This document shows, in pieces, positions 2,850-17,831 of a stretch of DNA of 20,847 nucleotides. Position 1 is the stretch's first letter; each line of letters opens with the position of its first letter. The stretch comes from a virus. A model generated the notes under the pieces. It was not told the origin of the DNA, made no database searches, and saw only the letters and a list, made by a program, of their open reading frames with translations. Made by a program: the position numbers and the translations under genes. The stretch spans positions 1 to 20,847 of the IMG/VR virus record IMGVR_UViG_3300030098_003012; one strand, written 5' to 3'.

Positions 2850-4295
2850 ATGTATATTTTTAAGACAAAACCTTTCAAACATCAGGAAGAGGTGTTGGAA
2901 AACAGCTGGAAAAGACCATACTATGGTTTGTTTATGGAAATGGGTTTAGGCAAATCAAAAGTAATAATAGATACCATAGGTAAATTAAAATTAGATGGTG
3001 AGATAGATGCTGTAATGATTGTGGCACCTAAAGGTGTGTATGATAACTGGGTTAAACAAGAGATACCGAATCACTTGCCAGATGAGTTTGATAGGTTCGT
3101 GGTCCGTTGGCAGCCCAGCAGTAGCAAAGCTTTTCAGGAAGATATGCAAAGACTTGTGTTTGAAACGATGACTGGCATAAAGTTCTTTGTTATTAATGTT
3201 GAGGCATTTAGCACAGACAGGGGCAAGAAGGCCGCATATTATTTTTTGAAAAAAAATCCTGATAACATGATGGTTATAGATGAAAGCACTACAATTAAAA
3301 ACCGTAAGGCTTCTAGGACCAAGAACCTTTTGCAGCTATCTAAGCACGCTAAGTATAAAAGAATATTGACAGGATCACCTGTAACAAAAAGTCCTATGGA
3401 TCTGTATTCTCAATGTACCTTCTTGCATTGTGCATCGTTAGACCAGCCGAGTTATTTTACATTTCAAAATAGATATGCCGTGGTGCAGAAGAGATACATG
3501 GGATCGCGCAGTTTTAACGAGATCACTGGTTATAGGAGATTGGACGAGTTGAATGAAAAATTAAATAAATTTAGTATTAGGGTATTAAAAGAAGATTGTC
3601 TGGATTTACCTGAGAAAATATACATAAAGAGAAACGTACCACTAACAACTGAACAAGCTAAACTATATGCACAAATGAAAAAGTACGCCTTAGCACAGCT
3701 AGATCAGGGTCAGCTGGCTACAACCTCTAGTGTGCTTACACAGATTATGAGACTGCAACAGATATGCTGTGGATATCTTATGAGCGATGAGGGCCAAATG
3801 AAAGTGCTAGACAATAACAGACTGAATGAGCTGCTGGCCGCGATTGAAGAATGTTCAGGCAAAATCATAATATGGTGTAACTATACACATGATATAAAAG
3901 AGATAGAAAAAGCTCTGTCTTCTAAGTACGGTCGCGATTCGGTGGCAACATACTATGGTGAAACTAAACAGGAAGATCGTCAGGCAACTGTGGATAAGTT
4001 CCAAGATATCCACAGCCCTCTTCGATTTTTTGTAGGGCAACCTAAGACAGGAGGTTATGGCATAACACTGACAGCCGCTAACACGATGATATATTACAGT
4101 AACAGTTATGACCTTGAAATTAGATTACAGTCTGAAGATCGTGCGCATAGAATAGGACAGAAGAAAGCTGTAACATACATAGATCTAATTGTAGAGGATA
4201 CTATAGATGAAAAGATTGTTAAATCTTTGCGTGAGAAGATAAATCTAGCTGGGCAAGTCTTGGGCGAAGAACAGAAAAGGTGGTTACTTGATTAA
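2850..4295 (+). CDS. SNF2-family DNA helicase/translocase
   Basis: A 481-aa superfamily 2 ATPase of SNF2 type, complete and close to the minimal two-RecA-domain length. Motifs in order: Q-like FKHQEEVL (9 to 16), motif I MEMGLGKS (29 to 36) for nucleotide binding, motif Ia MIVAPKGVYDNW (56 to 67), motif II DEST (144 to 147, a DExx box), motif III LTGSP (173 to 177), motif IV IIIWCNY (339 to 345), motif V from GQPKTGGYGITLT (396 to 408), and motif VI QSEDRAHRIGQ (427 to 437) with the arginine finger. Nothing is fused at either end. Such phage proteins translocate on double-stranded DNA and are thought to help replication, recombination or removal of bound proteins; the exact role here is unknown. 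It is the only rightward gene, has its own promoter region, and its last 12 bases overlap the end of the leftward M15 peptidase gene. Confidence 0.95.
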   Translation: MYIFKTKPFKHQEEVLENSWKRPYYGLFMEMGLGKSKVIIDTIGKLKLDGEIDAVMIVAPKGVYDNWVKQEIPNHLPDEFDRFVVRWQPSSSKAFQEDMQRLVFETMTGIKFFVINVEAFSTDRGKKAAYYFLKKNPDNMMVIDESTTIKNRKASRTKNLLQLSKHAKYKRILTGSPVTKSPMDLYSQCTFLHCASLDQPSYFTFQNRYAVVQKRYMGSRSFNEITGYRRLDELNEKLNKFSIRVLKEDCLDLPEKIYIKRNVPLTTEQAKLYAQMKKYALAQLDQGQLATTSSVLTQIMRLQQICCGYLMSDEGQMKVLDNNRLNELLAAIEECSGKIIIWCNYTHDIKEIEKALSSKYGRDSVATYYGETKQEDRQATVDKFQDIHSPLRFFVGQPKTGGYGITLTAANTMIYYSNSYDLEIRLQSEDRAHRIGQKKAVTYIDLIVEDTIDEKIVKSLREKINLAGQVLGEEQKRWLLD

Positions 4296-4727
4296 GCCTT
4301 GTCTGTATTTGTTTACTCTATCATATGTAAGCAGCTCCTTACGAGCACGCTGTGCATATGAACAATGTATCCAGCCTGTGTTGCCGCCTGTGTAGCACTC
4401 CAAGATGAGTTGATCAAAGACTAGGTTGTCTCTAATCCATTGTGCCAACAGATAGTTATCTACGTTAGCCACTTCAAAATCTGCCGCCTGACCCTTGCAA
4501 TGTTGTGAGTTCTTAGAGCTGCCGATGGCTATTGAAAGCTCTGGACAGCGGTACCCACTTGATACAATAAAGCTACCAAACTCATCACGAACTGGTTGCA
4601 ATATATTGTCTGCAAGCATTTTTAAATTTTCTATAGCTTCAGAGTTTGGTGTATTGTTAATACCTTTGCGCTCTGCTGTCTGGCTTTTTGTTAACTCTGC
4701 CAGAGTAAAGTTTTTACTTAACTGCAT
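4284..4727 (-). CDS. M15-type peptidoglycan peptidase (endolysin or virion-associated hydrolase)
   Basis: A 147-aa single-domain enzyme of the zinc peptidase M15 fold (D-Ala-D-Ala carboxypeptidase/L-Ala-D-Glu endopeptidase-like), expected to cut peptide bonds in cell-wall peptidoglycan. The signature S-x-H-x-x-G-x-A-x-D is seen as SQHCKGQAAD (74 to 83), giving zinc ligands H76 and D83. The third ligand is H121 in WIH (119 to 121). E110 in the LILECY stretch is a plausible catalytic acid. The N-terminal FTLAELTKSQTA (7 to 18) and VSSGYRCPELS (55 to 65) are typical of this family. There is no signal peptide or binding domain. The gene starts 4 bases after the stop of the 1517-aa protein, so it is probably translated with the internal virion genes. 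No holin is next to it. Its end overlaps the convergent helicase gene. Confidence 0.9.
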   Translation of the reverse strand: MQLSKNFTLAELTKSQTAERKGINNTPNSEAIENLKMLADNILQPVRDEFGSFIVSSGYRCPELSIAIGSSKNSQHCKGQAADFEVANVDNYLLAQWIRDNLVFDQLILECYTGGNTGWIHCSYAQRARKELLTYDRVNKYRQGLIK

Positions 4728-4730
4728 GTT

Positions 4731-4743
4731 ATTATCCGAATAA
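4731..4743 (-). repeat. 13-base repeat, copy 1 (LFG-stop with the next start close behind)
   Basis: ATTATCCGAATAA on the plus strand is identical to 12710 to 12722. On the coding strand it encodes the C-terminal Leu-Phe-Gly and the stop codon. The GGAT inside it lies just before the start of the next gene, the M15 peptidase. Confidence 0.5.
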
Positions 4744-7700
4744 TTTATATCTGTTAGGGTTCATATTATACAGATCTATGGCTCGTTTGTATTGAGCGCT
4801 TGGACTATTGCTTAAAGTAGCTATACCAGTTTGAGGTATGCCTTCTGAACCACCGTTTAAATTTAAGTTCATATTATATCCTGTAGTTGTTGTGCCACCT
4901 AAAGCCCTTGTAAGTGCGCTTGTCATCATAGAAGCTGGAGTGGGAAGTCCTCCCTGTGCTCCAGGACTGGTGACAGAGGTGATATTACCTTTTGAGTCAT
5001 AAGTGTAAGAGGGTTGAACACCTTGTTTTAAAGACTCAAGGGCTTGTTTGTTCATTTTATCCCTTAAATTAAAAACATCAAAAGGAATTTCACCTACTAA
5101 ATTACCGCCAGTGGCTTTTCCAATTTGTGTTGCTACAGTCATATCATCTTGATTGTTACCAGAATCTTCATAATTAGTATATCCGTAGTCAACATCGGTA
5201 TAATCTAAATCATCATCTTGACCATATTCATCAACAGCTCCACCTTCTCTCATAGGCTTAATCATTCCTGAAATAATATCATTAGGAAACAAAGATGCAT
5301 ATTGAGCTCTATTTATATTCGCGGGGGCGGCGGAGGAGATGCCACCACCCGCGGGAGCGGTGTTCAATCCGCTCAAAAATGGTTGACTTGAGGCTACTTG
5401 GGTGGTGGGAATACCCTCTTGTATACTCGGCTCAACCGAACTCATATCTCGTCTTTCTAAAAATTCAATTGTTTCATCTGTAGGTATACTATCTTCTTCA
5501 CCAGCTTCTCTTATAACACTAGGTGCGATCTTTACAGACTTATCAATGCCTAAGGTATTAGCGCCTTTAATTAATATGTTTGCAATATTATTTTGAATTT
5601 GAATTTTTTCTTTTTCACTTTTTGGCTTCTTAATAAAGTTTAAAAACAATTGCTTGTTAGTAAATAACTCTGTAACCAAGTTTAATTTTTCACTGGCAGG
5701 CATGTTAATTAAAAGGCTTCGTAAAAAGTTTGCACCTTTACTAGCCATCATAATAGATCCAGGGCCAGGCTGTCCGCCAGTCAAAGCTGAACCAGCTCTT
5801 GTACCGATTGCAGAACCACTTATGGCTACAAAGAAATCAAACAAAGGACCGACTTCTTCTAACAGCTGCTCATTTATCACACCGTTCTTCATTAAGTTAC
5901 CAGCGTTTTCTGCAATCTCTAATTTAATTAATTGTTTTGTAATGTAATCAATTTGTCTTACCTGATCAGGTTTAAATATTCCTTGTGATCTTAACAAGCT
6001 CATCATAGTTACAGACGGATTGTCAGACATAGGCTCATAAAAAGATCTATACAAAGCTTTGGCGTTGATGATACCACCTGTTCCACCAGCATTTATAAAA
6101 GCTCTATTAATTATAGCCTCACCCATAGCTTGTTTTGCTTGATCTTCAAAGGTGCTTCCTTTTAAAGATCTAAAAAGTTTCAACATACCTCTGGTTGGTT
6201 GATCACCTTTAAGAGCTGCTTCAATAGCTGTAATAGGATGCTGACCATTTATCATCTTAGATAAATATTCTGTATTCTTTATACTTTTCTTAACAGCGGC
6301 ATTTCTAACATCCCACATGGAGAACAGTCTTTGTGCATTAGAAACTGTTGATAGATCTTTATCTAAATTAGGAAATAAACGTAAGAGCTCTTTGTTTTTT
6401 TCTCTCCAAGAATCTAATTTTTTTTGATCTATTTGTGGTACAGTTGTATCTTTAAACTCGCCTATGACAGGTACTTTGGTATCAGATATAAGTTCTTTGC
6501 GGACAGTTCTTAGGTAAGCATCCATGTTTTGACGAATAGACAGGCCATTCTTTTCAGCTCCTTTGAAGCCCTTATCCACAGCAAAGTCTGACAAGTTTAA
6601 TATTTGTGTTGCTCTCTGCTCTATAACAGAAGGCTTACCTGTCATTACTTCACCTAAAAGATATTCAGGATTTATGTATTTTTGTCCAGTTGGTTTTTTT
6701 AATTTAGTTTTACCAACAATAGTTCTTGTTATGGCATTGTTAGAAGCTACAGAAAAATCTAAGGCCGCCCTGTATTTTGCGCCAGAGTTTGGTGCAAAGT
6801 CTTCTAATTCTTGTAGAATGGCTTCAGAAAACTCTCCTGCAATCCTAGCATAATCTTTATTTGGGTTTGGCCCTGAGCTATATTCTCTAGCTAATTGATT
6901 AGCTGCTCGTCTTATATCAACAAGCTGTGCAACAGTTATAGGCTTAAACGGATCTGGTTCTTTGCCTGTAACACCTCTATCTCTTAAAAATTTTATACTA
7001 GTAGGAGCAAACCTTAATTCAGGATCATCGTTAAAAAAACCAGCTCCACCCGCTTCTTCTCTTTTAAGATTTCTTAAAATTTGAGAGTCAGTGTACAACA
7101 TATAATCATTTATTTGAGTTCTTTGTTTTTGAGTTAATTTAACCCTTGGATCATCTAGAGCTGCTTGTAAAATTCTATTTTGTGTAATCAAAGTAAGGCT
7201 GTCTGTAGGTATTCTTTGTGTCTGATTATCAGGCATCAAGGTTCCATTAAACATTTGATAATAGTCCACTTGACCAGCTTCCATTTTTCCATCCATAAGC
7301 GTACCTGTTGCTTTAGAACGAGCATTATCATAGAGAGGATTTCCAGGATTAAAATCACTATTAGGCATTGCATCAATACGGCTATTAGCATAACCATCTG
7401 CACTTAGTATTTTTTCTATATCTCTAGTAAAAGGAACATTCTTGCCTTTTAATTCTTTTTCTGTTTTCTCTATTAAACTATCTACGGTAGGATCAGCTTC
7501 TTTTGATTTATATAAATTAAAAAATCTAGACAAAGGACGTAATGCAATGTCTTTTTCAATATCTGTAGAAGGATTAGGTTTTTTATTAGACATCCAACTT
7601 TGCATAAAATAAGGGGGATCTTCTGGATCTATTTCAGTAATCACCTCTTTATTATCAATTTTAGACCAAAGTTTTCTTTCTTCATTTCTAATTTTATTTA

Positions 7701-9285
7701 TTTGTGAATTTAATAAATCAGATATTTTTTTATTTATTAATTTTAATTTTGCAGGATCAGACATGCCTCTCTTGCCTACATTTAATAATTCTAATCCTGC
7801 ACCGAGTCTATTCATAGCGCTTTTTACTCTAGTGCCTACAGCAAACTCTATAGCAGATCGTCTGAACTTTGCAGCCTCACTCAAAACACCAAAGGCTTTT
7901 TTGGGCTCATCATCTATTCTACCCAACAACTTCAAGTAATTCGTAAGACCTGTTCTCATTTTGGTAGAACTATTTCGTGCATAAACATCTAAATCTGTAT
8001 TTGTTTTTCTTAACGATGCTTCAATTATGCTTAACAATATTTCATCAGATTCTTGGCCCACGGTCGGAGAGAAGTTAGCTTCAGGAAAAATTTCATTAAA
8101 TGTTTTTATATTATTTGGATCAGACAAAGCTTCAAAAACAGCCACAGGATCTCTCTCATATCTTTGTAAAATACTAACAATATTGTTTACTTGATTTTCT
8201 TGAGCTCTGTTTTTCAAACCTTCAAGTCCGCTAGCTTTGACAGCGCTAAATTTATCTGCAATGAAATTAGCCATAGATGTAGATGCTTTTGTAGCTAAAA
8301 CAGGTAGACTACTGCCACCAGCTATTTCAAATAATAATCGTGTGCCTGTAGCTCCTGGATCTACTTTCTCTGCAGCAAAAGCTCCTATAGAGGCCCCACC
8401 TATAGCTGCAACATCTCCTGTTGCAGTCAAAGCACCAAACCTTATGTTCTCTCCTTTGGTTCTAAAAGGACTACCTCTATATGCTGTTGAATAATTTTTA
8501 AAAAAGTTTTCTACGCCAGCAGATAATCTAACGCCAGCTGGCACAGTAACATCATCTGCCAAGTTATCTATGATGGCTTTTGTGCCCCAATCTAAATTTC
8601 TAGGTATCATAAAAGGAAAAATAAGGCCTGTGCTACCACCTACACCTGTTCTTATCATCTCTTTTATTGCTTTTTGTTGTCCTGGAGTAGTTACAGATTC
8701 AGCTCCTAAAACATATTCATCTAACTGATCTGCTATTGAATATGTCATTGTGCTTGTTGTTAGACCAAAAAATATAGGCGGTAAAAATTTAGCTGCGGCT
8801 TCTGGTATGCTTTTAGGTGGGCCACCCTTTAACATTAATTTACCAGCCCTTTTGACAGTTTCACCAAAAACATATGCGGATGGTAAAGCTCTGAAGAGCT
8901 CTCTCATAATAGTATCTTCAATATCAACGTCATTCAGTGTCGTAAAAAACTTTAATATTTCACTGTCAGTCATTTTTCTTTGAGCATCAGGTCTTTGAGA
9001 GAAGTTACCTGATATTTCTCCTGACTGCATTTTAGGGTCGTTAATAAAATTTAAAATGGTAGCTGTTCCATCTTTCAAACCCTTATAGGTTAAAAAGTTT
9101 GGGTCTTTTTTCATTTGTTCTTTGTAATCTGTGGTGGCGTAAGACATGACAGCGTCCTGTGCCAAGAGAGATGGAGCTTCTTTACCAAACTGTAGAATAA
9201 ATTGATCTACATCCTCTTTACTATACTTGATACGGTTGCCACTTAAATCAATAGGAGACATGGTATTTGTGGTTTGATTTTCCAT
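4732..9285 (-). CDS. giant internal virion/DNA-ejection-type protein
   Basis: A 1517-aa protein and the largest gene here. I recognise no enzyme motif, and no lytic transglycosylase signature is apparent. The N-terminal third is helical with several hydrophobic, glycine-rich stretches that could meet a membrane: FLPPIFFGLTTSTM (167 to 180), GVGGSTGLIFPFMIP (214 to 228) and about 284 to 345. The middle (about 350 to 1140) is charged and helical, Lys/Glu/Asn-rich. A second hydrophobic Gly-rich stretch lies near 1145 to 1190. A Pro/Gly/Ala linker coded by a GC-rich island (near 1311 to 1322) leads to MREGGAV (1345 to 1351), an acidic Tyr/Asp-rich segment, and a low-complexity C-terminus ending KLFG. 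Size and place, last of four large proteins before a wall hydrolase, recall T7 gp16. AAGGGAG 6 bases upstream fixes the start. The assignment to the ejection apparatus is inference. Confidence 0.6.
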   Translation of the reverse strand: MENQTTNTMSPIDLSGNRIKYSKEDVDQFILQFGKEAPSLLAQDAVMSYATTDYKEQMKKDPNFLTYKGLKDGTATILNFINDPKMQSGEISGNFSQRPDAQRKMTDSEILKFFTTLNDVDIEDTIMRELFRALPSAYVFGETVKRAGKLMLKGGPPKSIPEAAAKFLPPIFFGLTTSTMTYSIADQLDEYVLGAESVTTPGQQKAIKEMIRTGVGGSTGLIFPFMIPRNLDWGTKAIIDNLADDVTVPAGVRLSAGVENFFKNYSTAYRGSPFRTKGENIRFGALTATGDVAAIGGASIGAFAAEKVDPGATGTRLLFEIAGGSSLPVLATKASTSMANFIADKFSAVKASGLEGLKNRAQENQVNNIVSILQRYERDPVAVFEALSDPNNIKTFNEIFPEANFSPTVGQESDEILLSIIEASLRKTNTDLDVYARNSSTKMRTGLTNYLKLLGRIDDEPKKAFGVLSEAAKFRRSAIEFAVGTRVKSAMNRLGAGLELLNVGKRGMSDPAKLKLINKKISDLLNSQINKIRNEERKLWSKIDNKEVITEIDPEDPPYFMQSWMSNKKPNPSTDIEKDIALRPLSRFFNLYKSKEADPTVDSLIEKTEKELKGKNVPFTRDIEKILSADGYANSRIDAMPNSDFNPGNPLYDNARSKATGTLMDGKMEAGQVDYYQMFNGTLMPDNQTQRIPTDSLTLITQNRILQAALDDPRVKLTQKQRTQINDYMLYTDSQILRNLKREEAGGAGFFNDDPELRFAPTSIKFLRDRGVTGKEPDPFKPITVAQLVDIRRAANQLAREYSSGPNPNKDYARIAGEFSEAILQELEDFAPNSGAKYRAALDFSVASNNAITRTIVGKTKLKKPTGQKYINPEYLLGEVMTGKPSVIEQRATQILNLSDFAVDKGFKGAEKNGLSIRQNMDAYLRTVRKELISDTKVPVIGEFKDTTVPQIDQKKLDSWREKNKELLRLFPNLDKDLSTVSNAQRLFSMWDVRNAAVKKSIKNTEYLSKMINGQHPITAIEAALKGDQPTRGMLKLFRSLKGSTFEDQAKQAMGEAIINRAFINAGGTGGIINAKALYRSFYEPMSDNPSVTMMSLLRSQGIFKPDQVRQIDYITKQLIKLEIAENAGNLMKNGVINEQLLEEVGPLFDFFVAISGSAIGTRAGSALTGGQPGPGSIMMASKGANFLRSLLINMPASEKLNLVTELFTNKQLFLNFIKKPKSEKEKIQIQNNIANILIKGANTLGIDKSVKIAPSVIREAGEEDSIPTDETIEFLERRDMSSVEPSIQEGIPTTQVASSQPFLSGLNTAPAGGGISSAAPANINRAQYASLFPNDIISGMIKPMREGGAVDEYGQDDDLDYTDVDYGYTNYEDSGNNQDDMTVATQIGKATGGNLVGEIPFDVFNLRDKMNKQALESLKQGVQPSYTYDSKGNITSVTSPGAQGGLPTPASMMTSALTRALGGTTTTGYNMNLNLNGGSEGIPQTGIATLSNSPSAQYKRAIDLYNMNPNRYKLFG
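5320..5353 (-). other. GC-rich hairpin inside the 1517-aa gene
   Basis: CGCGGG (5320 to 5325) pairs with CCCGCG (5348 to 5353). Inside it, GGCGGC can pair on with GCCACC after a one-base bulge and one mismatch, leaving a loop of about 9 bases. The stretch is almost free of A/T on one arm in an AT-rich gene and codes for the Ala/Gly linker at about residues 1311 to 1322. It is not followed by a U-run, so it is not a normal terminator. Confidence 0.5.
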
Positions 9286-9288
9286 ATA

Positions 9289-12200
9289 TTACTCCCTTGT
9301 TTTACCTATACCAATTAATTCACCAGAACCAAACTTATTTTGAGCATCACTTGCTTGTGTAGTACCAAACTCAGGATTTAATCCTGGCATTCTCTTCTCA
9401 AACAATAATATACCTGTTTGTAATTCAGAAATAACTTGTAATATTTCTTTAGATTCTTTTCGTGCCTCTTCAATTTGTTTTTGGCTAAAATCTGTAGGAT
9501 TGTTCATAATACCCACAGCTAATTTATATTTAGATGCAACAAAATCTCTGAGGCCTACCATGCCATCGTACAAGGTAACATCATTTTGAAAAATGCCACC
9601 CTCTAATACTTTAGTAAAGTTTCTTAAATTTTTAGCATCTTCTTTAAATAATCTACCTGTTACCGTTTCTCTTGCCAAAGAATTAACTTGTACGTTCAAG
9701 GCTTGAAATGCTTTTTGAGCTTTTTTAACTTCAGCTTGATCTTGTGTGAAAAATCCTGTGTCTTTGAAACCTGCAGACTGCAGTGCTCCTGCAAGCGGTA
9801 AAAATAATTTAGACACGGCTATGTCTATACCACCTGCTGCGTCAGGATTTATATTCTCTTTCATCAAACTAGTTGTTACTTCATTACTTATTTTGTCAAA
9901 ATCTACTTTACCATCAGGAAGTATATAACTGTCTTTTATAGCATTTGTTTCTACTTTTATAGGTAGACTTACGTCTGTAAAGCCATTCTCTATTCTCTTT
10001 TCAATGGCAGATACAACGGCTGGACTTAATGATTGTGGTGGTCTTGTAACATATCTACCAGCTTGTTGATTAAAAGTAGTCTTTGACTGGTTGAAATAAG
10101 ATATGGCATTGGCCATCATCAAAGAGGTATTCTCATCTAAAGTACCGTCTGCAAATTTTCTCAAGTTTGAAGCATTGTTAAGTACTCTGGTGTACACACC
10201 ATCTATATTTTTACCAAACTCTGAGTTAGTCAAAGCTAATTTTTCTAAAGCTATCTTCTTATTTTTATATGATATATCAAGTAAATTAAAAGCTTTATCA
10301 TTATCTATTTTTTCTTTGTCTAGTCGTGTCATCTCACTTCTATAAAAAGTCAAATCTGATTGTACTTGCTTTCTAAACATCAAGTCTTGTTGTTTAAAAG
10401 CGTTCTCTAACAATTGTTTTTCTTTTTGTAATTCAATTTTTGCAGCACCCTGAGCGTTTTCTATTGCACGCTGTGCTTCGTCAAGTTCTTGCTGTCTTTC
10501 TTTTAATAAAGTTTCTCTTTCTTTAAAGGCGTTTATTATAGCATTTTGTGCCTTAGCTTCCTCAAACTTGTTTTCTTTTAAAAGTTGTTCTCTAGCAAAT
10601 TCTGCTTTTTTTCTAGCCTCTGTTGTTCTATTTAAATCAAGTTGACCTGCATTTATTTGTATTTGAGCCTTCTTAATATTGTTACTTACTTCTCTAAACT
10701 GAACTAAATTAGCTTCTCTTTTCTTATCAAAGTCTAATCGTTCTCTCTTGAACACTAAGTTGTTATCGTTAATAGCTATTTTTGTAGAATTATTTTGATT
10801 TGCTATGAACTCAGATGATTTGATTTGTGTATCAAGCTGTGACTTATCAAAAGTTTGTTTATCTTTTTGTAATACCAAAGCGTTAGCGTGTTTAGTCGCT
10901 ATGTTAGCTACTTCAAAACCTTGTTTTAATTCTAACTTATCAATATCAAAGCCTTGAGCTATACCCATTTCTATTTTTTTGTTTTTGAAATTTATGTTAA
11001 TCTTTTCTATTTCTTTTTCGTGGGCCGCGTCCTGAGAGGCAGCTGCTATTTCTGCTTCAACGTCTTTTAATAATAACGTAAATTCATTTGCTTTTTTTAC
11101 TTTGTTGGCATCGTTACTGGCTAAGATAGCATCTCTTTCCTTTACTAAGTTAGCTTTAAACTGCTCTAAATTTAATTTAGCTATATTACTATTTACTTGA
11201 CGAGTATCTTTTTTTGCCTCTACAAATTGAGTTTTTGCTAAATCTATGCCTCCTGCAAGCATAGTTTTTCTTTCACCTATTGTTGCGTCAACCTTTTTAG
11301 CGGCTAACTGTCCAGCCAAACTTAAAGCAGCTGTCTTTGGGGCTTGTTCTTCAGCGGCTTTTTCTTTTATAGCTTGAGCAGATCTAGCGGCAATAGTTGG
11401 AAATAATTTAGTTCTTTCTGCAGCCATAGCTAATCGTTGGGCAGGGCTTAACCCAGCTTTCTCACCTTCCATAGGACTGGCAAAAGCAAGAGCTGTGTTA
11501 GCTATGTCAAACAAAATTTGAGACTGTAGCTGTTTTTTTCTAGTATCAGGATCTGTAAATTGCATGTTCTTTTGAAACAAAGGCAAAAGTTTTTGATAGT
11601 CAGTCTGTATACCAGTAGTAATATCATCAAAGCTAGTTAAAGGTGTGATGCTTCCAACCTTTACAGGCCCGCCTTCTTCAAAAACAGGAACTGGATCTTC
11701 ATCACCTCGGCGGCGAACTTCGCCGCCTAACTTAAAATTTACGGGTGGCTCGTTACCAACCCCCATATTTCCGCTAGCCGCCATTGACATAATGCCTCTG
11801 CCCATATCGCCTTCTATGGGAGTATTCATCTGTTCTTGAGCCATTGGTCCTATGCCCTGATCAACTAAAGCTAATTCAACAACTGGCGTGACCAAAGTTA
11901 AAACACTCTCTGGCGTTTGATTTGCATCTTCTTGCCCAACTATTGTTGCCAAATCACCTCTTCTTTCTTCTGTACTTTTTTCATCTCCAGTAACGCTATC
12001 CATCATGGCTTCAAAGTTAGGTGCCATTTCTGGGTCACTAAAACCTGCCTGACTAGCTTGACCTACCATGTTTCCAACTATATTTGCATCCATAGCAGGA
12101 GAAGAGTTCATAATCCCGCCCGCAGGTACGCTGCCTCCCTCTTGCATGGCAACAATGGGTAAAGGACCTCTTTCTCTAACCTCCATTGCTTCATCTAGAT

Positions 12201-12711
12201 CACGAAGATCTCGTTGATCTGCTCTTTCTGTTGGAAAAGTAGGTGGTCCGAAAGGGCTATATTGAAAAGTTGCCCCTGAGTCTGCTCCAACCATTTGATC
12301 ACCTAACCTTAAAGCACCCATAGTTCCGACCTGCTCTTCAAAATTAGAGGGTGGTGGTGTACGAAGAAAAGTGCCACTAGGGTCGAATTTTTCAAATATT
12401 CCAAACTCTCGTGGATCTAAATTTGTACCAAAAAATTTATTATAATCTTCTACTGTAGTGCCAGGATTATCCCTGAAAAAACGTACTATATTATAAATAT
12501 TATTAGGATCAAACCCTACTGTTGCTATATCTTCTTCTGTTTGTGGGCTCTGTCTTTTTACTACTCTACCACCCTCTTGATATTTTTTAGCTAATTCTGG
12601 GTTCATCTTCATTTGCACTTCTTCAGGCAATTTAGAAAAACCCTTAAATTCATTAGGCACGGCTGCTCCACCTTCTCGGAACATTTGCCGTTGCATTACG
12701 CTTCTATTCAT
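9289..12711 (-). CDS. large coiled-coil internal virion protein
   Basis: A 1140-aa protein of three visible parts. Residues 1 to 360 are low in order and carry repeated short Gly-Gly motifs: REGG (12 to 15), QEGG (45 to 48), QEGG (190 to 193), LGGEV (328 to 332) and EEGG (345 to 348). They also carry Met/Pro/Gln-rich stretches such as VDQGIGPMAQEQM (283 to 295). Residues 380 to 480 are Ala-rich helix. Residues about 500 to 830 are Lys/Glu/Gln/Asn-rich, almost free of Pro and Gly, and very likely form a long coiled coil. The C-terminal 300 residues look globular and helical. No enzyme motif is visible. I remember similar N-terminal motifs in uncultured marine phage proteins of unknown function. 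Position between the 302-aa and 1517-aa genes suggests the role of T7 gp15 (ejection tunnel), as inference. The start overlaps the upstream stop (TAATG). It is not a classical tape measure by any sign I can see. Confidence 0.6.
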   Translation of the reverse strand: MNRSVMQRQMFREGGAAVPNEFKGFSKLPEEVQMKMNPELAKKYQEGGRVVKRQSPQTEEDIATVGFDPNNIYNIVRFFRDNPGTTVEDYNKFFGTNLDPREFGIFEKFDPSGTFLRTPPPSNFEEQVGTMGALRLGDQMVGADSGATFQYSPFGPPTFPTERADQRDLRDLDEAMEVRERGPLPIVAMQEGGSVPAGGIMNSSPAMDANIVGNMVGQASQAGFSDPEMAPNFEAMMDSVTGDEKSTEERRGDLATIVGQEDANQTPESVLTLVTPVVELALVDQGIGPMAQEQMNTPIEGDMGRGIMSMAASGNMGVGNEPPVNFKLGGEVRRRGDEDPVPVFEEGGPVKVGSITPLTSFDDITTGIQTDYQKLLPLFQKNMQFTDPDTRKKQLQSQILFDIANTALAFASPMEGEKAGLSPAQRLAMAAERTKLFPTIAARSAQAIKEKAAEEQAPKTAALSLAGQLAAKKVDATIGERKTMLAGGIDLAKTQFVEAKKDTRQVNSNIAKLNLEQFKANLVKERDAILASNDANKVKKANEFTLLLKDVEAEIAAASQDAAHEKEIEKININFKNKKIEMGIAQGFDIDKLELKQGFEVANIATKHANALVLQKDKQTFDKSQLDTQIKSSEFIANQNNSTKIAINDNNLVFKRERLDFDKKREANLVQFREVSNNIKKAQIQINAGQLDLNRTTEARKKAEFAREQLLKENKFEEAKAQNAIINAFKERETLLKERQQELDEAQRAIENAQGAAKIELQKEKQLLENAFKQQDLMFRKQVQSDLTFYRSEMTRLDKEKIDNDKAFNLLDISYKNKKIALEKLALTNSEFGKNIDGVYTRVLNNASNLRKFADGTLDENTSLMMANAISYFNQSKTTFNQQAGRYVTRPPQSLSPAVVSAIEKRIENGFTDVSLPIKVETNAIKDSYILPDGKVDFDKISNEVTTSLMKENINPDAAGGIDIAVSKLFLPLAGALQSAGFKDTGFFTQDQAEVKKAQKAFQALNVQVNSLARETVTGRLFKEDAKNLRNFTKVLEGGIFQNDVTLYDGMVGLRDFVASKYKLAVGIMNNPTDFSQKQIEEARKESKEILQVISELQTGILLFEKRMPGLNPEFGTTQASDAQNKFGSGELIGIGKTRE
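9292..9298 (-). promoter_or_regulatory. ribosome-binding site of the 1517-aa gene embedded in the end of the 1140-aa gene
   Basis: On the coding strand AAGGGAG forms the last codons (Arg-Glu) of the upstream gene. It is followed by its TAA and then, 6 bases after the motif, by ATG at 9285. This favours that ATG over the in-frame Met at residue 9 and indicates coupled translation. Confidence 0.65.
11709..11727 (-). other. perfect GC-rich palindrome inside the 1140-aa gene
   Basis: GGCGGCGAA (11709 to 11717) and TTCGCCGCC (11719 to 11727) are exact inverted copies around a single C. In RNA this would give an 8-pair stem with a 3-base loop, unusually stable for this AT-rich region. It codes for GGEVRRR at residues 329 to 335. 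No U-run follows on either strand. Confidence 0.65.
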
Positions 12712-12722
12712 TATCCGAATAA
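12710..12722 (-). repeat. 13-base repeat, copy 2 (LFG-stop with overlapping next start)
   Basis: Identical to the copy at 4731 to 4743. On the coding strand it encodes the C-terminal Leu-Phe-Gly and TAA of the 302-aa protein. The TAA shares its last base with the ATG of the 1140-aa gene. Confidence 0.5.
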
Positions 12723-13619
12723 CCCCGCTTGTCTTGCTCCAGCACCTGCCGCTAAACCAGCAATACCTAGTCCTAGATACTGTTGAAACGGTGACACATT
12801 AGGTGATGTGGATTGTGTTATAGTTTGTTGTGTCGTAGGCGTTTTACTATATATGTCAGATAAAAATCCTAGTCTTTGGTACGGCTCGTATATTTGTGCT
12901 AAATTACTTTGTCTTTCCGCTTCTAGTTCTGCCTGATCCTGAGCTTGTAGTAACTGACCTATCTTAAAAGCTCCTTCAACATCTCTTTGTCCTAGACCTT
13001 GCATAGTCTCTCCAAGAGCCGCTTGTCTCAAACCAAGTTGACTTTGTTGCCCTGCAAGTCCAGCTATGCCTTGTCCGAGCTGTGTTTGTCTTGCTAACTC
13101 TCTTTCAGCAGCACCTTGAGCCTGTAAAAAGTTTTGAGCTTGCGCTTGAGCTAAAGCAGCCGCTCTGTTTCTGTCTATTTCAGATTGTGCTATTTGACCT
13201 CTTGAACCACCAAAAGCTCCTGATCCAACAGCACCAGCTCTGGCCTGATTTAACTGCATATCAAAAGATCTATTGATCTCATCTGCCACAGCCTGTTGAA
13301 ATGGGTTCATGTTTCTAGTAATCATTTCTTGTGTAACAGGACCAGCACCAGCTCTTAAAGCAGCTTCAACACCACCTAATGTTTGTCCAGCACCACCAAC
13401 CGTTTGTCCTGCCTGTTCAAGAAAAGGCATAAAAGATCCAAGACCTGCTTGAGCTTGTTTTCTAGCAGCTTCCTGAAGACCCGTGAGCCCTGCAACCTGT
13501 TGCGTTGGTAAAGTTATACCTTGATCGGCAAGTTCTTTAGCAGACTCAAGTAGTCCAATACGATACGCTTCTATTTCAGGGGTTTCACCAACCTGTTGTA
13601 TAATGGTTTCTGTTGCCAT
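12711..13619 (-). CDS. Ala/Gln-rich virion protein, probable DNA-ejection component
   Basis: A 302-aa protein, strongly helical, rich in Ala, Gln and Gly. The block NPFQQAVADEINRSFD (105 to 120), followed by QARAGAVGSGAFGGSR (125 to 140) and SEIDRNRAAALAQAQAQ (146 to 162), is a pattern I know from phage proteins annotated as DNA transfer or injection proteins. After it come Gln-rich heptads with LGQG/LGLR repeats (181 to 230). The C-terminus has a hydrophobic glycine-rich helix, YLGLGIAGLAAGAGARQAG (281 to 299), and ends LFG. It could insert into a membrane or form a ring in the tail. Its start overlaps the stop of the 544-aa gene and its stop overlaps the start of the 1140-aa gene, both as TAATG. 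By size and order it would match T7 gp14 (inference). No catalytic motif is present. Confidence 0.6.
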   Translation of the reverse strand: MATETIIQQVGETPEIEAYRIGLLESAKELADQGITLPTQQVAGLTGLQEAARKQAQAGLGSFMPFLEQAGQTVGGAGQTLGGVEAALRAGAGPVTQEMITRNMNPFQQAVADEINRSFDMQLNQARAGAVGSGAFGGSRGQIAQSEIDRNRAAALAQAQAQNFLQAQGAAERELARQTQLGQGIAGLAGQQSQLGLRQAALGETMQGLGQRDVEGAFKIGQLLQAQDQAELEAERQSNLAQIYEPYQRLGFLSDIYSKTPTTQQTITQSTSPNVSPFQQYLGLGIAGLAAGAGARQAGLFG

Positions 13620-15253
13620 TATGCCATCGCCCTTCCGCGTTGCTCTAAGTTTCTCATAACACTATACATGTTATTTATACCTTTGTTAAGGTTTCCATTT
13701 CCTAAACCTTTAACAGCGTCTGTAGTCATCACAAACTCTCCAGGCATTAGCATAGCTCTTACACTATCTTCGTTAGGTATACCCTCATCAGGCATTATGC
13801 CGCCTGTTCTTCTAGGAAATATCTCTCCACCTTCAGCTACATTCTGTGTAAAGACAGGCGGATTAAAAACATATGGATTATATTGAAAACCAAAAGAAGT
13901 ATCTCTTGTAAAGGGACCTTGAGCTTGATTGACGGTTGTATCTCCTACTTTAAATCTATCAGGATCTTCTTGATAAACATCTAATCCTGTTCTTGATGGC
14001 TCTAATTCTTCTTGTTCAGGAGCATCAAAAAATCCTGTAGATGCTCCCACCGTACCCGCTAGCGCTAGACTAGGTCCGTAAGTTCCCATGAATCCAGGGC
14101 TCAACTCAGCTGCTTTCTTAACAGCTTCTTTGTATATAGCGTCATTTGCACTAATTTTTGTTATATCTATGTTATTTGCCTTTAAAACATCTGCGGCTGT
14201 TACGTTTCGCCCGCCTGTAAAGGCATCAAAATAATTACCTTCTTTTAAACTTTCTATGGCTCCTACTCTATCAACGCTTGCGCCAAGACTTGAATCTATA
14301 CCTTTTGTAGGATCAAGAGCTATATTAGATCTAGTTTTCGGAGCAAGAAGAAGGTCTGATTCTTTTTTTGCTGCGGCTTGTATAAGGCCGTCATCAGGTC
14401 TGCCTAAATCAACAACTCTTCCATCTGCATTAACTTGATATAATCTACCATCTTCTCCAAGACTAGGCTTGTTTAATATAGAGTCAGATACTTTATCAAT
14501 GCTTCCAGATGATGTTGATGCTAAATTTGTGGTAGGTGCTTGATAAGTTCCAAAAAAGTTACCTTGACCTATTCCAGCGGCAGTTTGTCCGAACCTGCCT
14601 GCGGGATCTGCAAAAGCTTGGCTAATACCTGCAGTGCCCCCAGTAATACCAGAATACACAGCACCACTAGCACCAGCTAAAACAGCGTTTCTAAGTGCGT
14701 CTTCTGGACTACCACCACTTATAAGTGTTCCTATACCAGAACCTAATGCAGCTCCATATATAGGTCCTAATGGTGTGGCCGCTAAAGCAAGAGGTAAGAT
14801 AACAGGCGCAGCTTTCTTCAAAGCCTTACCTACACTTTTGGCAATACTACTTACGCCTCTGCTTACCTTTTTAAATAATTTTTTTAAAAAAAACTCTGGT
14901 AAACCTGTTGTTGGGTTAATACTGTTTTCTTGTGAACCCACTACATATCTCTCAGGGTCCTCTACACCTAGCTCTCTTAAATGTTGAAATATGCTTTCTT
15001 TCAGGGCAGGGCTTCTATCAATCAAGGCCCGTGGGACAATGAGCTCGCCTGTTTCAACGTGAGCCACAGTGTCATCACCGTATCGACCAAAGTTAGCCAT
15101 TTTCTTACCAACGTCAGAAAACTGCGCAATACCGCTTGTGCCATATTGTTCTTTGAGCTCTTCAGCTTCTAAAAGCTCTATCTGCTCATCAGTCATTACA
15201 AAGTCTGCAATACCGCCTGCTGGTATGTCTTCTTTTTTAAGAGCTTGGTCCAT
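13619..15253 (-). CDS. virion protein with cationic amphipathic and glycine-zipper segment
   Basis: A 544-aa protein. The N-terminus (1 to 110) includes GRYGDDTVAHVETGELIVP (56 to 74). A Lys-rich amphipathic helix, FFLKKLFKKVSRGVSSIAK (121 to 139), is followed by a hydrophobic Ala/Gly stretch (about 148 to 206) with small-residue spacing like a membrane-active glycine zipper. The middle is low in recognisable motifs. The C-terminus has AEGGEIFPRRTGGIMPDEG (473 to 491) and RAMLMPGEFVMTTDAV (499 to 514). That arrangement resembles the GG...PGEFV module common near the ends of tape measure and other phage virion proteins. A role in crossing or docking at the cell envelope is inferred. No strong ribosome-binding site precedes the ATG (AGGG at 13 bases; GGA too close), so the exact start is less sure. 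The stop overlaps the next start. Confidence 0.6.
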   Translation of the reverse strand: MDQALKKEDIPAGGIADFVMTDEQIELLEAEELKEQYGTSGIAQFSDVGKKMANFGRYGDDTVAHVETGELIVPRALIDRSPALKESIFQHLRELGVEDPERYVVGSQENSINPTTGLPEFFLKKLFKKVSRGVSSIAKSVGKALKKAAPVILPLALAATPLGPIYGAALGSGIGTLISGGSPEDALRNAVLAGASGAVYSGITGGTAGISQAFADPAGRFGQTAAGIGQGNFFGTYQAPTTNLASTSSGSIDKVSDSILNKPSLGEDGRLYQVNADGRVVDLGRPDDGLIQAAAKKESDLLLAPKTRSNIALDPTKGIDSSLGASVDRVGAIESLKEGNYFDAFTGGRNVTAADVLKANNIDITKISANDAIYKEAVKKAAELSPGFMGTYGPSLALAGTVGASTGFFDAPEQEELEPSRTGLDVYQEDPDRFKVGDTTVNQAQGPFTRDTSFGFQYNPYVFNPPVFTQNVAEGGEIFPRRTGGIMPDEGIPNEDSVRAMLMPGEFVMTTDAVKGLGNGNLNKGINNMYSVMRNLEQRGRAMA

Positions 15254-15291: not shown

Positions 15292-15681
15292 CTATATCCT
15301 TGATATCGCACTTGTTGTAACTCTTGTCTTTGATAATTCTTGTATACTGGCTACAACATGCAATCTATTAGCTGTCGCTGCTTGTACTTTTAATATTTCT
15401 CCACTTTGCAATATTAAATCTTTTGTAAGTAATTCTATGGTTGTATTCGCTCCTACAGTTTTGACTTTGAATAAACTAAATGTATCACTACCACTTACAA
15501 GTTGAACTGTTATTGTATCTGCATTACCACTGTCTTCAGATACTAAGATAGAGTTAACAACAGCAGCATTGAAATCGGCATCACTAGGAACTGTAAACAA
15601 AGTTGTAAGATCCGTTGTGGTTAAATCTACCTTTGCGTTTGTTACACCTTGAATATATTGAGGAATACTAGTTATAAGCAT
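15292..15681 (-). CDS. small beta-rich virion protein of unknown function
   Basis: A 129-aa protein with regular alternation of hydrophobic and Thr/Ser/Asp residues, for example KVDLTTTDLTTLFTVP (17 to 32), TITVQLVSGSDTFSLFKVKT (56 to 75) and TTIELLTKDLILQSGEILKVQA (79 to 100). This suggests a beta-sandwich fold. Cys, Trp and catalytic signatures are absent. The start codon lies in a TGATG overlap with the end of the 716-aa gene, so the two are coupled. It may be a minor tail or head-tail component. I do not recognise the family. Confidence 0.6.
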   Translation of the reverse strand: MLITSIPQYIQGVTNAKVDLTTTDLTTLFTVPSDADFNAAVVNSILVSEDSGNADTITVQLVSGSDTFSLFKVKTVGANTTIELLTKDLILQSGEILKVQAATANRLHVVASIQELSKTRVTTSAISRI

Positions 15682-17831
15682 CAGCGTCTACCGTCCGTTC
15701 TTATATCCACTCTAGGTGTACCTAATTTATATTTTGTCCCCAGTGATGTAGAATCAATTCTTAATGCAAAAGATCTACCTCGTAAACGATAATTTAATTT
15801 TTCTGTAAACTGCTCTACAGGACTAGTAGCTGACCTTTGGGCCGTGGCCTGTGTAGTCTCATTAAAATTTGCCCCAGGATTATTTCTAGATTTCATAGTA
15901 AAAGACACATCTGGATTAACACTTGTCGATCCAGTAAATGTGATATCTGGTATAACTTGTTTTATAAACAAGAACTTATCGCCATCTCCTATATCAATAG
16001 CTGAAGATTCTATGAAGGATGTCATGGCAGATCCATCATCATCAAACCCAACCTCATGATTATAAAGCAACGAACTACCAGTAGCTTGCGGAAGATTTCT
16101 TATACCTCTGTCAAGCCATGCGTCTCTTGCTAATGTTCCGTAATACCAAACTTTTTCTAAATAATTATACGCAACGTATTTATCTATTTGTGTACCAGCA
16201 GATGATGGATAAAACCACAATATTTCACTAAACTCTGAATTAAGTCCTACATGTACTTTATCACGCTCTGCAAAATTAAAATCTAAAAATACTTTATCTT
16301 TTACTGTGCATGGTAATTGTATTGTTTGACCCCCAGAATAAACATAGAACGTATCTACACCCATCCAAAACACGGCATCCTCAACAGCTATTGCAGAAAA
16401 TGGACTCATTATAGTTATATTCTTTGATAATTCTTGCAAACCAAACGTAAATGGTGGACCTATGAACTTCATGGCGTGTAGTGTTTTGTTAGTAAAGACT
16501 AATATCTGTTGTTTTGTTTCAACAGCTTGTACAAAGGTAGATCCACCACCTAACCTCAAATCACCTGCTGTATTAGTAGCAGTTGGAAAAAAGTCCACTG
16601 GATTTTCTTGTGAGGAGAAACGTATTAACAATGGATCTTGTATGCCGTTTCCTTGTGTAGCAGACGAGTTTGCACCTAATCCATCACAACCAAAGACAAT
16701 AACATGTCTGTCTTGATCTGATACAAGAACTTGTTTAGCTATTGTTGGCACACTTGTTTCTCCAGAGTATGTACTTGTAGCACTAAGTTCTATAGCTCTG
16801 TTACTTAATCCATTTGTTTTATCCCAGTAAAATATACCACCATCTCTTGGATTTATAATAATATCTTCACCAAAATTATCATGTGACCATAATCTAATCT
16901 GTGCTCCAGGAGTCGTGACACTTGCTGCATTACCCCATCCAACAAAGTCATTGGCAGAATCTGCATTACCAGTTGCTAATCTTACAAGAGTATTATCTGC
17001 ATGTGTGGCTGCATCCGTGCCACTTGCACCTCTGGTTGATGGTCCACCACCAGTTCCCAAAGTATTAGAACTTATTGTACCTACTGTAATAAGTTCTTCA
17101 TCTATTAATATTAAATCACCAGCCGTGATACCTGTTGCACTATCTACATCTATTGCAGTTTCACTTGCATCTAAGGCTTCTGCTAATTGTGTTGCTAAAG
17201 CACCAGATGTTGTACCACTCCATTGACCAGCACCAAATCCAGTTCCACCAACTGTGTTATCCAGTCCTACATTTAATTGATACGCACCCACAACGCTACT
17301 ACCACCATTGCCTGTATCAGATGAGTTAGCTGCCACGCTTGATGTTATCTCGTAAGCATTAGAACTTACTAGTTTTGTTATTTGAAACTCTGCGTTAAGT
17401 ATTGTAGCAGTTATTAATCCACCTAAACTTGATGCACCAGAAAATGTTACGAAATCTTTTTCATTTGCACCATGTGCTGGATCGGTAACAGTTATTGTTG
17501 TTGATCCATTTGTTGCAGAAAAAGTTACATCACCTGCACCTGTGGTGTTTCTAATGGGTGTAATATCGTTAAAAGTCTGACCTTCTTCAATGTAATATTT
17601 AAGATGTGTTCCAATACCTAAAAAATCAGATCCATCTAAAGCTACCCAGTTATGTAGCCGTCTAGCAGATCCCTCATAAGTATTAGATGTAACTCTTTCC
17701 CAACCACCAAATTTTTCTGGAAAACCAAACCTAAATCTTACTTTATCACCATCAATAAAACCACCTTCATTACTATAAGATGTAATATCAGATACAACAC
17801 CAGGTTTAAATTTTAAAGCTGTCATAGGCAT
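15681..17831 (-). CDS. tail nozzle / DNA-stabilisation-like structural protein
   Basis: A 716-aa beta-rich protein with features I know from a widespread marine phage structural family. The N-terminus has FKPGVVSDITSYSNEGGFIDGDKVRFR (first Phe at 8), then FPEKFGGWERV (37 to 47). The centre has IRLWSHDNFGEDIIINPRDGGIFYWD (starting at 312). The later part has ILWFYPSSAG (537 to 546), YVAYNYLEKVWYYG (552 to 565) and a C-terminus ending RVDIRTDGRR. Repeated beta blades suggest a propeller, as in the short-tail nozzle proteins T7 gp12 and P22 gp10. The match to these is by general layout, not by clear sequence identity. Residues 211 to 290 form a distinct Thr/Ala/Asp-rich module. The start shares a base with the stop of the 395-aa gene (TAATG). 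A second Met at residue 3 is possible. Confidence 0.6.
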   Translation of the reverse strand: MPMTALKFKPGVVSDITSYSNEGGFIDGDKVRFRFGFPEKFGGWERVTSNTYEGSARRLHNWVALDGSDFLGIGTHLKYYIEEGQTFNDITPIRNTTGAGDVTFSATNGSTTITVTDPAHGANEKDFVTFSGASSLGGLITATILNAEFQITKLVSSNAYEITSSVAANSSDTGNGGSSVVGAYQLNVGLDNTVGGTGFGAGQWSGTTSGALATQLAEALDASETAIDVDSATGITAGDLILIDEELITVGTISSNTLGTGGGPSTRGASGTDAATHADNTLVRLATGNADSANDFVGWGNAASVTTPGAQIRLWSHDNFGEDIIINPRDGGIFYWDKTNGLSNRAIELSATSTYSGETSVPTIAKQVLVSDQDRHVIVFGCDGLGANSSATQGNGIQDPLLIRFSSQENPVDFFPTATNTAGDLRLGGGSTFVQAVETKQQILVFTNKTLHAMKFIGPPFTFGLQELSKNITIMSPFSAIAVEDAVFWMGVDTFYVYSGGQTIQLPCTVKDKVFLDFNFAERDKVHVGLNSEFSEILWFYPSSAGTQIDKYVAYNYLEKVWYYGTLARDAWLDRGIRNLPQATGSSLLYNHEVGFDDDGSAMTSFIESSAIDIGDGDKFLFIKQVIPDITFTGSTSVNPDVSFTMKSRNNPGANFNETTQATAQRSATSPVEQFTEKLNYRLRGRSFALRIDSTSLGTKYKLGTPRVDIRTDGRR

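Follow-up and report, generated by a model that had tools for sequence, protein, structure and literature searches.

Organization of the Locus

The window that we analyzed, a stretch of 20,847 nucleotides (positions 1 to 20,847 of IMG/VR virus record IMGVR_UViG_3300030098_003012), carries on its minus strand a gene for a 716-aa nozzle (tail hub) protein (15681-17831), followed by a gene for a 129-aa protein (15292-15681) and by four genes encoding proteins of 544 aa (13619-15253), 302 aa (12711-13619), 1140 aa (9289-12711), and 1517 aa (4732-9285). Next on the same strand is the gene for a 147-aa M15 peptidase (4284-4727), and a converging helicase gene on the plus strand (2850-4295) closes the late operon, which defines the boundary of the module. 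The genes are tightly packed, with spacings of -1, -1, and 3 bases within the row of four and a gap of 4 bases between the 1517-aa gene and the M15 gene. The four-protein row after a nozzle-like protein described in the first-pass annotation is thus borne out by open reading frames on the minus strand. Contrary to what had been proposed, protein size does not rise steadily along the row, the 544-aa protein preceding the 302-aa protein, and the M15 gene lies outside the interval 4732-15253 in which it had been included. Nor are the proteins unusually large: the last ejection protein of Escherichia coli phage SU10 (gp24) has 1473 aa, so the sizes here are not exceptional, and the last protein of relatives reaches up to 2803 aa.

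The four open reading frames are not chance, since iterative profiles find family members, with their order kept, in 166 (544-aa), 161 (302-aa), 124 (1140-aa), and 77 (1517-aa) of 170 loci, which were chosen by similarity to parts of the module and include near-copies and fragments. In dozens of related virus contigs, the genes follow a true nozzle gene in this conserved arrangement. Members of the 129-aa family were found in 63/170 loci, the protein matching phrog_1276 (8e-6), a PHROG without function.

Several named phages share this layout. DSL-LC04 (OR003939) encodes counterparts of all four proteins, identically arranged (759/294/645/1068 aa), after a stabilization (nozzle) protein and followed by a converging helicase; in contrast to the window, its last two proteins are smaller and its M15 and holin genes lie directly upstream of the nozzle gene. 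In 023Pt_psg01 and the pelagiphages HTVC023P and HTVC027P, we found a nozzle, a 302-type protein, a very large last protein (868-1386 aa), and the converging helicase, but these cassettes hold extra small genes and their last protein has no detectable sequence kinship to the one studied here. M15 occupies the same place as in the window in 023Pt_psg01, whereas it is far upstream in HTVC023P.

Relationship to the SU10 Ejection System

The 716-aa protein matches phrog_3287 with an E-value of 2e-59, and the nozzle gp17 of SU10 falls in the same PHROG (8.4e-116). Searched against solved structures, the nozzle family profile retrieves chain 9nwi_Y (1e-32) and the nozzle chains 8zkm/8zkk (1e-15). 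Although SU10 gp17 is reached weakly by this profile in a direct comparison, the PHROG link is clear; P22 gp10, present as a single target sequence, was not found. Judged by sequence, the 716-aa protein belongs to the SU10 gp17 nozzle family.

The 302-aa protein can likewise be assigned, by similarity, to the family of SU10 gp21 and gp22, both of which leave the SU10 head upon genome release. It matches phrog_4287, a "DNA ejection protein" family (2.1e-11), in which gp21 (9.5e-118) and gp22 (3.5e-109) also fall, and its family profile reaches gp21 with 25.4 bits by hmmsearch (hhalign, 62%/59%). A hidden lysozyme in this protein was considered and rejected, the Pfam Phage_lysozyme match (E-value of 0.068, 15.3 bits) being below the cut-off of 22.3 bits, composed of Ala/Gln/Gly-rich helices, and overlapping the PHROG 4287 region. 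The predicted model of the 302-aa protein has a pLDDT of 66, and no listed row stands out in a fold search.

Homology of the nozzle and the 302-aa protein to parts of a proven system upholds the reading of the row as an ejection-type module. In SU10, the gene order comprises proteins of 260/350/322/551/1473 aa, and the small-to-very-large order after the nozzle is shared with the window. Portal and adaptor were assessed in the near-complete relative G001 only, the window ending short of those genes: G001 encodes an SU10_portal (PF23899, 4.5e-14) and an SU10_adaptor (PF24175, 7.4e-27), together with a capsid protein, a GTA_holin_3TM protein (5e-22), and one M15 peptidase. For the long-tail gene set that might have been present elsewhere in the genome, this one relative thus shows a portal and an adaptor of the SU10 type.

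The resemblance to gp14, gp15, and gp16 of T7 suggested by the first-pass annotation holds for function but not for sequence, and SU10 is the right comparison. An enlarged internal core of the T7 type would fit the module's place after the nozzle, its combination of small helical and larger proteins, its coiled coil, and its like function. However, five family profiles matched nothing among T7 gp14-16 and P22 gp4, gp10, gp26, gp14, gp7, gp20, and gp16, the profile of the 1517-aa protein missing T7 gp16 and P22 gp16/gp20 in particular; the sensitivity of this test is limited because the targets are single sequences. Moreover, T7 gp14 belongs to phrog_805 and P22 gp7 to phrog_598, whereas the 302-aa protein belongs to phrog_4287, and no transglycosylase was found here, while T7 gp16 has an endolysin domain. 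Ejectosomes with proven kinship diverge strongly as well, as a passage of PMC11440229 describes. We regard descent from a T7-type core as very unlikely.

The 544-, 1140-, and 1517-aa Proteins

The 544-, 1140-, and 1517-aa proteins gave no sequence match to any proven ejection protein compared (T7, P22, and SU10), and their putative function is suggested by position. The 544-aa protein, which has a hydrophobic stretch, is syntenic with a 759-aa protein of DSL-LC04 annotated as a "tail tape measure protein." Its most conserved alignment columns form a C-terminal block, GxxxxxDSVxAMLxxGEFVMxxxAV (13622-13846, minus strand), and it is from this block that its matches to tape-measure PHROGs (about 5e-5) arise. 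Together with the DSL-LC04 annotation, these matches would suit a tape measure in a cassette belonging to a long-tailed phage, but they span only about 55 residues, a nozzle is present, and the near-complete relative G001 has a portal and an adaptor of the SU10 type. Among the matches listed (25 of 40 Pfam families), neither a tail tube nor a tail terminator appears. In the same Pfam check of relatives, a tail assembly chaperone family was matched by one member (2.8e-6). A long-tailed phage is hence hardly credible. A match of the 544-aa family to a solved 1699-aa tape measure (4.9e-9) was read as compositional, reflecting a hydrophobic Gly/Ala-rich part; its best-scoring stretch stops before the conserved C-terminal block.

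The 1140-aa protein is, by place and alignment, the orthologue of the 645-aa gene product of DSL-LC04. It contains a coiled coil and, on its N-terminal side (11662-12711, minus strand), five [FYM]xxGGx[VAIL] motifs at residues 11, 44, 189, 326, and 344. This short motif recurs within the 1140-aa family.

The 1517-aa protein is related to the "DNA transfer protein" of DSL-LC04 (tblastn, 6e-14). Its AlphaFold2 model has an overall pLDDT of 65, the best-predicted part being a compact helical block at residues 949-1169 (5779-6441, minus strand; pLDDT mostly 80-97), and no listed row stands out in the fold search, giving no clear known fold. T7 and P22 core proteins are absent among the fold-search rows of the 302- and 1517-aa proteins, which excludes nothing. 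Designed helical bundles found with the 1517-aa family in the solved-structure search (1.5e-5) were set aside as compositional. As first noted, no transglycosylase motif is apparent in the biggest protein, none being found by Pfam in it or in the 1140-aa protein, and neither hhalign nor hmmsearch linked these two proteins to SU10 gp23 or gp24.

Might the 1517-aa protein be no conduit part but a polyvalent effector that is injected along with the DNA and acts on the host? PMC5512222 describes proteins of this kind as predicted to be injected, and in relatives some proteins encoded at this position contain LPD38 (in MinM2, 2803 aa, and in loci L060 and L067) or a ddrB-ParB domain (L086). However, the 1517-aa family matches neither LPD38 nor any other polyvalent domain, its profile misses all four of these proteins, with no kinship to the LPD38 proteins detected, and no enzymatic domain was found in the 1517-aa protein. 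We thus consider an effector role rather unlikely.

In the 13 loci that carry an HlyC-like acyltransferase, its gene immediately follows that of the last ejection protein (13/13). No kinship was detected between this protein and T7 gp13, P22 gp14, CRP-901 gp34, HTVC023P gp80, or a 164-aa protein of MW202675. A GNAT domain is present in CRP-901 gp34 and is weak and below the cut-off in the MW202675 protein.

The M15 Peptidase and Exchange of Wall Enzymes

The M15 peptidase matches Peptidase_M15_3 (3.2e-19, residues 5-122) and the endolysin family phrog_894 (5.6e-44). Like the M15 phage endolysins of these families, it is a single-domain enzyme with HxxxxxxD and WIHC motifs, which we take to be the metal site; it has no hydrophobic segment and is not fused to a virion protein. 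It differs from them in that its gene directly follows ejection genes and has no holin gene as a neighbor, and, consistent with what was first noticed, no transmembrane protein adjoins it in the window.

Across 169 loci, a wall enzyme (M15, GH24, or GH108) was found in 58, two kinds never occurring together (0/58). Downstream of the final large protein there are 15 M15, 15 GH24, and 1 GH108, and at most five genes before the nozzle there are 8 M15, 13 GH24, and 1 GH108. Where the place after the module is visible (70 loci), M15 is there in 14 and all three enzymes are absent in 46, which shows that M15 is not a constant partner of the ejection module. On the tree of the 302-aa protein, enzyme class and place switch at least 11 times.

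Ten records, the window's among them, give a similar picture. M15 is present in five of the nine related ones (G001, G002, G003, G005, and G009, one each) and a lysozyme above the cut-off in two, never together. GTA_holin_3TM is encoded in 5/10 records, including the near relatives G001-G003 but not the window fragment (20.8 kb), and in G006 the lysozyme gene adjoins that of a 3-TM holin. SLT, NLPC_P60, and Amidase_2 domains are absent from all ten records, and the near relatives with M15 have no Phage_lysozyme either. For an ejected transglycosylase like SU10 gp20, the SLT family scored 0/10 (controls positive, 8/14); the genome search for GH108 was uninformative, matching nothing anywhere, controls included. 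Because the same place is held by M15, GH24, GH108, or none, two places are used, two kinds never co-occur in a locus, and a 3-TM holin is encoded elsewhere in near relatives, the wall enzyme has the character of an exchangeable endolysin. M15 is therefore most likely the phage's endolysin, serving to burst the host once infection is complete and not to breach its wall at the outset.

The first-pass annotation had instead suggested that M15 supplies a missing wall-cutting function during entry. M15 packaged with the ejection proteins might open the wall for the DNA, alone or besides a role in lysis, and its gene does stand immediately behind that of the largest ejection protein, in a place long retained in several lineages, including 023Pt_psg01; furthermore, the ten records lack SLT, NLPC_P60, and Amidase_2, whereas SU10 has the ejected transglycosylase gp20. 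Against this, the place is common to unrelated lysis enzymes, GH24 or GH108 being able to occupy it, and is empty of all three in 46/70 loci that retain the module. M15 can also lie before the nozzle by a holin (DSL-LC04) or far upstream (HTVC023P), and it is free of any virion-protein fusion. An entry role of this kind seems quite unlikely to us. In the M15 tree, post-module peptidases form one side and upstream ones are apart (divergent row L166 excepted), and this grouping shows the adjacency of M15 to the module to be old; a functional link could also explain it. Finally, a dual use is still to be weighed because no gp20-like ejected transglycosylase was found: the separate SU10-type enzyme would have been lost and the sole M15 would act at both ends, a few copies accompanying the ejection proteins and loosening the wall at entry, the bulk serving as exit endolysin. 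We give this variant an equally small chance.

Discussion

Our preferred reading, to which we assign a probability of about 0.78, is that the four proteins are SU10-like ejection proteins and M15 a late-operon endolysin working with a 3-TM holin encoded elsewhere. The 544-, 302-, 1140-, and 1517-aa proteins would be packaged in the head of an SU10-like short-tailed phage, exit it after adsorption by way of the 716-aa nozzle, and line or construct a periplasm-crossing conduit for DNA entry. The late operon ends with the M15 gene, whose product would gather in the cytoplasm until the holin, probably encoded elsewhere in the genome of the window's own phage, releases it late, whereupon it may cut the peptide part of the wall, leading to lysis.

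The comparison with gp17 and gp20-24 of SU10 (Kuravirus) extends to the separation of endolysin and holin genes from the ejection genes. The two differ in that M15 ends the module here, that no counterpart of the SU10 transglycosylase gp20 was found in the ten records, that the 544-, 1140-, and 1517-aa proteins have no sequence match to gp23 or gp24, and in genome size (about 58 kb versus 77 kb).

The locus is an ordinary but little-described set of DNA-ejection proteins in a short-tailed marine phage. The HlyC-like acyltransferase of some relatives, if active, would raise the question of whether ejection proteins are lipid-modified for membrane crossing. The pattern of one exchangeable wall enzyme in two favored places offers a simple rule for finding the endolysins of these phages. 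They form an abundant group of aquatic podophages, and their ejection genes, most of which carry the labels "hypothetical," "tape measure," or else "DNA transfer protein," are now placed within the experimentally tested framework of SU10.

Gene Block and Its Relation to SU10

The window record is linear and, at 20,847 bases, is a fragment. Genes for a 716-aa nozzle protein, for proteins of 129, 544, 302, 1140 and 1517 aa, and for an M15 peptidase (4284-4727) follow each other in the direction of transcription on its minus strand, with intergenic spacings of -1 to 4 bases except for 38 bases upstream of the 544-aa gene. A plus-strand helicase gene converges tail to tail on the M15 end of the block, the two genes overlapping by 12 bases (4284-4295). 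When we recomputed ORF coordinates and spacings, the ORFs and distances of the first-pass annotation proved correct. The genes and places of its ejection module of increasing size (4732-15253) stand, but the rising order is not strict, since the 544-aa protein precedes the 302-aa one.

As for the identity of the parts, PHROGs places the nozzle in phrog_3287 (2e-59), the 302-aa protein in phrog_4287 "DNA ejection protein" (2.1e-11), and the peptidase in phrog_894 endolysin (5.6e-44), the last also matching Pfam Peptidase_M15_3 (3.2e-19). The 1140- and 1517-aa proteins have no PHROGs match, that of the 544-aa protein is confined to its last ~55 residues, and none of the four large proteins has a Pfam match above cut-off. 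Compared with solved chains, a nozzle profile of ten members matched 9nwi_Y (1e-32) and the nozzle-named 8zkm and 8zkk (1e-15). The AlphaFold2 model of the 302-aa protein (pLDDT 66) is all helix, with two helices of >50 residues each, while that of residues 130-1319 of the 1517-aa protein (pLDDT 65) has a well-predicted helical part at 949-1169; fold searches with these two models gave no clear known-fold match.

In Escherichia phage SU10, the ejection genes gp20-24 (encoding 260, 350, 322, 551 and 1473 aa) lie downstream of nozzle gp17 and needle gp18, from which a single gene separates them. SU10 gp17 belongs to phrog_3287, like the window nozzle, and both gp21 and gp22 fall, together with the 302-aa protein, in phrog_4287. 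Direct comparison of the 302-aa family gave 25.4 bits with gp21 in hmmsearch, and 62% with gp21 and 59% with gp22 in hhalign. Thus one of the four proteins has proven ejection proteins among its homologues. The 544-, 1140- and 1517-aa families gave no signal against SU10 gp19-24 with either program, and we infer that they are ejection proteins from place, order and co-conservation. A near-complete related genome of 58,648 bases (G001) carries an SU10-family portal (PF23899, 4.5e-14) and adaptor (PF24175, 7.4e-27), together with capsid and large terminase. SU10 is the appropriate yardstick for the module. The first-pass annotation likened the size order to T7 gp14, gp15 and gp16; no kinship to these was found by sequence, nor was any to P22 proteins. 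This does not refute common ancestry because, according to PMC11440229, ejectosome proteins may diverge greatly in sequence and structure despite clear structural homology.

Conservation and Variation of the Cassette

The named relative DSL-LC04 (OR003939) has the same four genes in the same order, downstream of its stabilization protein; all four protein pairs were translated and aligned. The C-terminal block of the 544-aa protein (DSVxAMLxxGEFVMxxxAVxGxGxG; window 13622-13846) is present also in tape-measure PHROGs, and may account for the "tape measure" label given to such proteins, for instance in DSL-LC04. Scanning IMG/VR yielded at least 450 relatives with the 302-aa alignment and at least 196 with the 544-aa alignment, the best 80 of each being kept. 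Iterative profiles from the window's proteins were used to annotate 170 loci, in which the window is counted twice and near-copies and fragments are included. Members of the 544-, 302-, 1140-, 1517-aa and nozzle families were found in 166, 161, 124, 77 and 155 loci, respectively, counts that are inflated because the loci were chosen for their resemblance to the module.

The size of the last large protein differs greatly between relatives; HTVC023P, for example, has one of 868 aa, MinM2 one of 2803 aa. Its place is taken by proteins with polyvalent domains, LPD38 in three and ddrB-ParB in one, in L010 (15886-24297), L060 (12314-17674), L067 (10856-15973) and L086 (12591-19343); the profile of the 1517-aa family does not detect these four proteins. 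The 302-type protein reaches 900-1346 aa in L111, L123, L133, L156 and others, those scanned having no recognised added domain. In MW202675, a 1185-aa protein (L011 9188-12745) joins a 302-type part to Peptidase_S74 and SLT transglycosylase domains, so a wall-cutting domain can be built into an ejection protein in this group. GNAT acetyltransferase genes lie within the cassettes of CRP-901 (L007 23957-24391) and MW202675 (L011 8694-9188; weak match). T7 gp13 and P22 gp14 are likewise small genes preceding ejection genes, though no kinship could be detected.

A motif, [FYM]xxGGx[VAIL], was first noticed in the window and in L001-L005, the remaining proteins serving as a test set. It is repeated in the 1140-aa protein (window 11662-12711, minus strand) and occurs also in the 544- and 1517-aa proteins. 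The counts are descriptive, the motif having been worded after lists that included held-out members and the members being related: 113 seen versus 12.0 in shuffles for the 1140-aa family (44 of 68 proteins), 59 versus 23.0 for the 544-aa, 21 versus 10.5 for the 1517-aa, 5 versus 11.2 for the nozzle, 1 versus 6.7 for the 302-aa and 87 versus 51.4 for unassigned proteins. Concentrated in the N-terminal 40% of the 1140-aa family, the motif could act as a signal for docking or packaging.

The M15 Peptidase and Other Wall Enzymes

The first-pass annotation suggested that M15 might cut the wall during entry and not in lysis alone. In 70 loci the last large protein is visible together with the convergent helicase. 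The interval between the two contains M15 in 14 of them, twice preceded by an HlyC-like gene; 8 loci have a GH24 lysozyme there, 2 a GH108 enzyme, 9 only an HlyC-like gene, and 37 none of these. Pfam matches of 66 members selected from 109 listed genes bear out these kinds. Most of the 70 loci have no M15, GH24 or GH108 at the module end. With the window counted once (169 loci), 58 loci have a wall enzyme and none has two kinds, one GH24 being split across two ORFs (L090). Enzymes are encoded downstream of the last large protein (15 M15, 15 GH24, 1 GH108), within five genes upstream of the nozzle (8 M15, 13 GH24, 1 GH108), far upstream (1 M15, in HTVC023P), or in loci without a visible nozzle (4). 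A tree of 52 proteins of the 302-aa family, with some long branches and uncertain joins, requires 11 changes among the seven class-and-place labels (minimum 6, shuffled mean 29.4); on it, GH24 in L085 groups with M15 at the same place in L055 and L066 (support 100/97).

Across nine related records, M15 exceeds the cut-off in G001, G002, G003, G005 and G009, and lysozyme in G004 and G006, never together; G007 and G008 have neither. SLT, NLPC_P60 and Amidase_2 each matched 0 of 10 records, window included, while positive controls matched. A 3-TM holin is present in G001, G002, G003, G006 and G007, adjoining the lysozyme in G006 and lying near the portal, ~26 kb away from M15, in G001; in DSL-LC04, M15 and an annotated holin are adjacent upstream of the nozzle. 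A functional link between M15 and the module would be consistent with the M15 tree, where after-module M15s lie on one side and upstream M15s apart (divergent L166 excepted), and with the finding of no enzyme like SU10 gp20. The exchange pattern and holin placement argue that the wall enzyme, in the window most probably M15, acts like an exchangeable endolysin. Together with the lack of M15, GH24 and GH108 from the module end in most loci, they speak against a fixed entry role, even if some M15 might be packaged in the virion.

An HlyC-like Neighbour

An HlyC-like protein of 132-170 aa (PF02794, up to 3.4e-15) is encoded in 13 annotated loci (L022, L024, L025, L028, L029, L030, L032, L033, L034, L035, L039, L097 and L099) and not in the window. 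Its gene is directly downstream of the 1517-type gene in all 13, with a 1- or 4-base overlap in nine, and is usually followed by a Gly-rich gene. Two residues are conserved, a His within SxxHRxx(Y/W) or a motif close to it and an Asp that precedes FIA; such a His and Asp are catalytic in HlyC. The putative acyltransferase possibly modifies the last ejection protein. No kinship was detected between the HlyC-like protein and T7 gp13, P22 gp14, CRP-901 gp34, HTVC023P gp80 or the 164-aa protein of MW202675. It had no tblastn match among 50,697 phage records, and our literature search found no publication linking HlyC with a phage ejection protein. PMC7003362 counts hlyC as one of the virulence genes that marine viruses carry.

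In the literature on the group, the main text, as far as available, mentions no M15, endolysin, peptidase or internal virion in PMC9599517, no peptidase, ejection, internal virion or lysozyme in PMC10149686, and no M15, ejection or DNA transfer in PMC10611076. Our verdict is that this is an ordinary though under-annotated ejection cassette, nearest to that of SU10, plus an endolysin. The HlyC-like gene and the repeated motif may merit more attention than the module itself.
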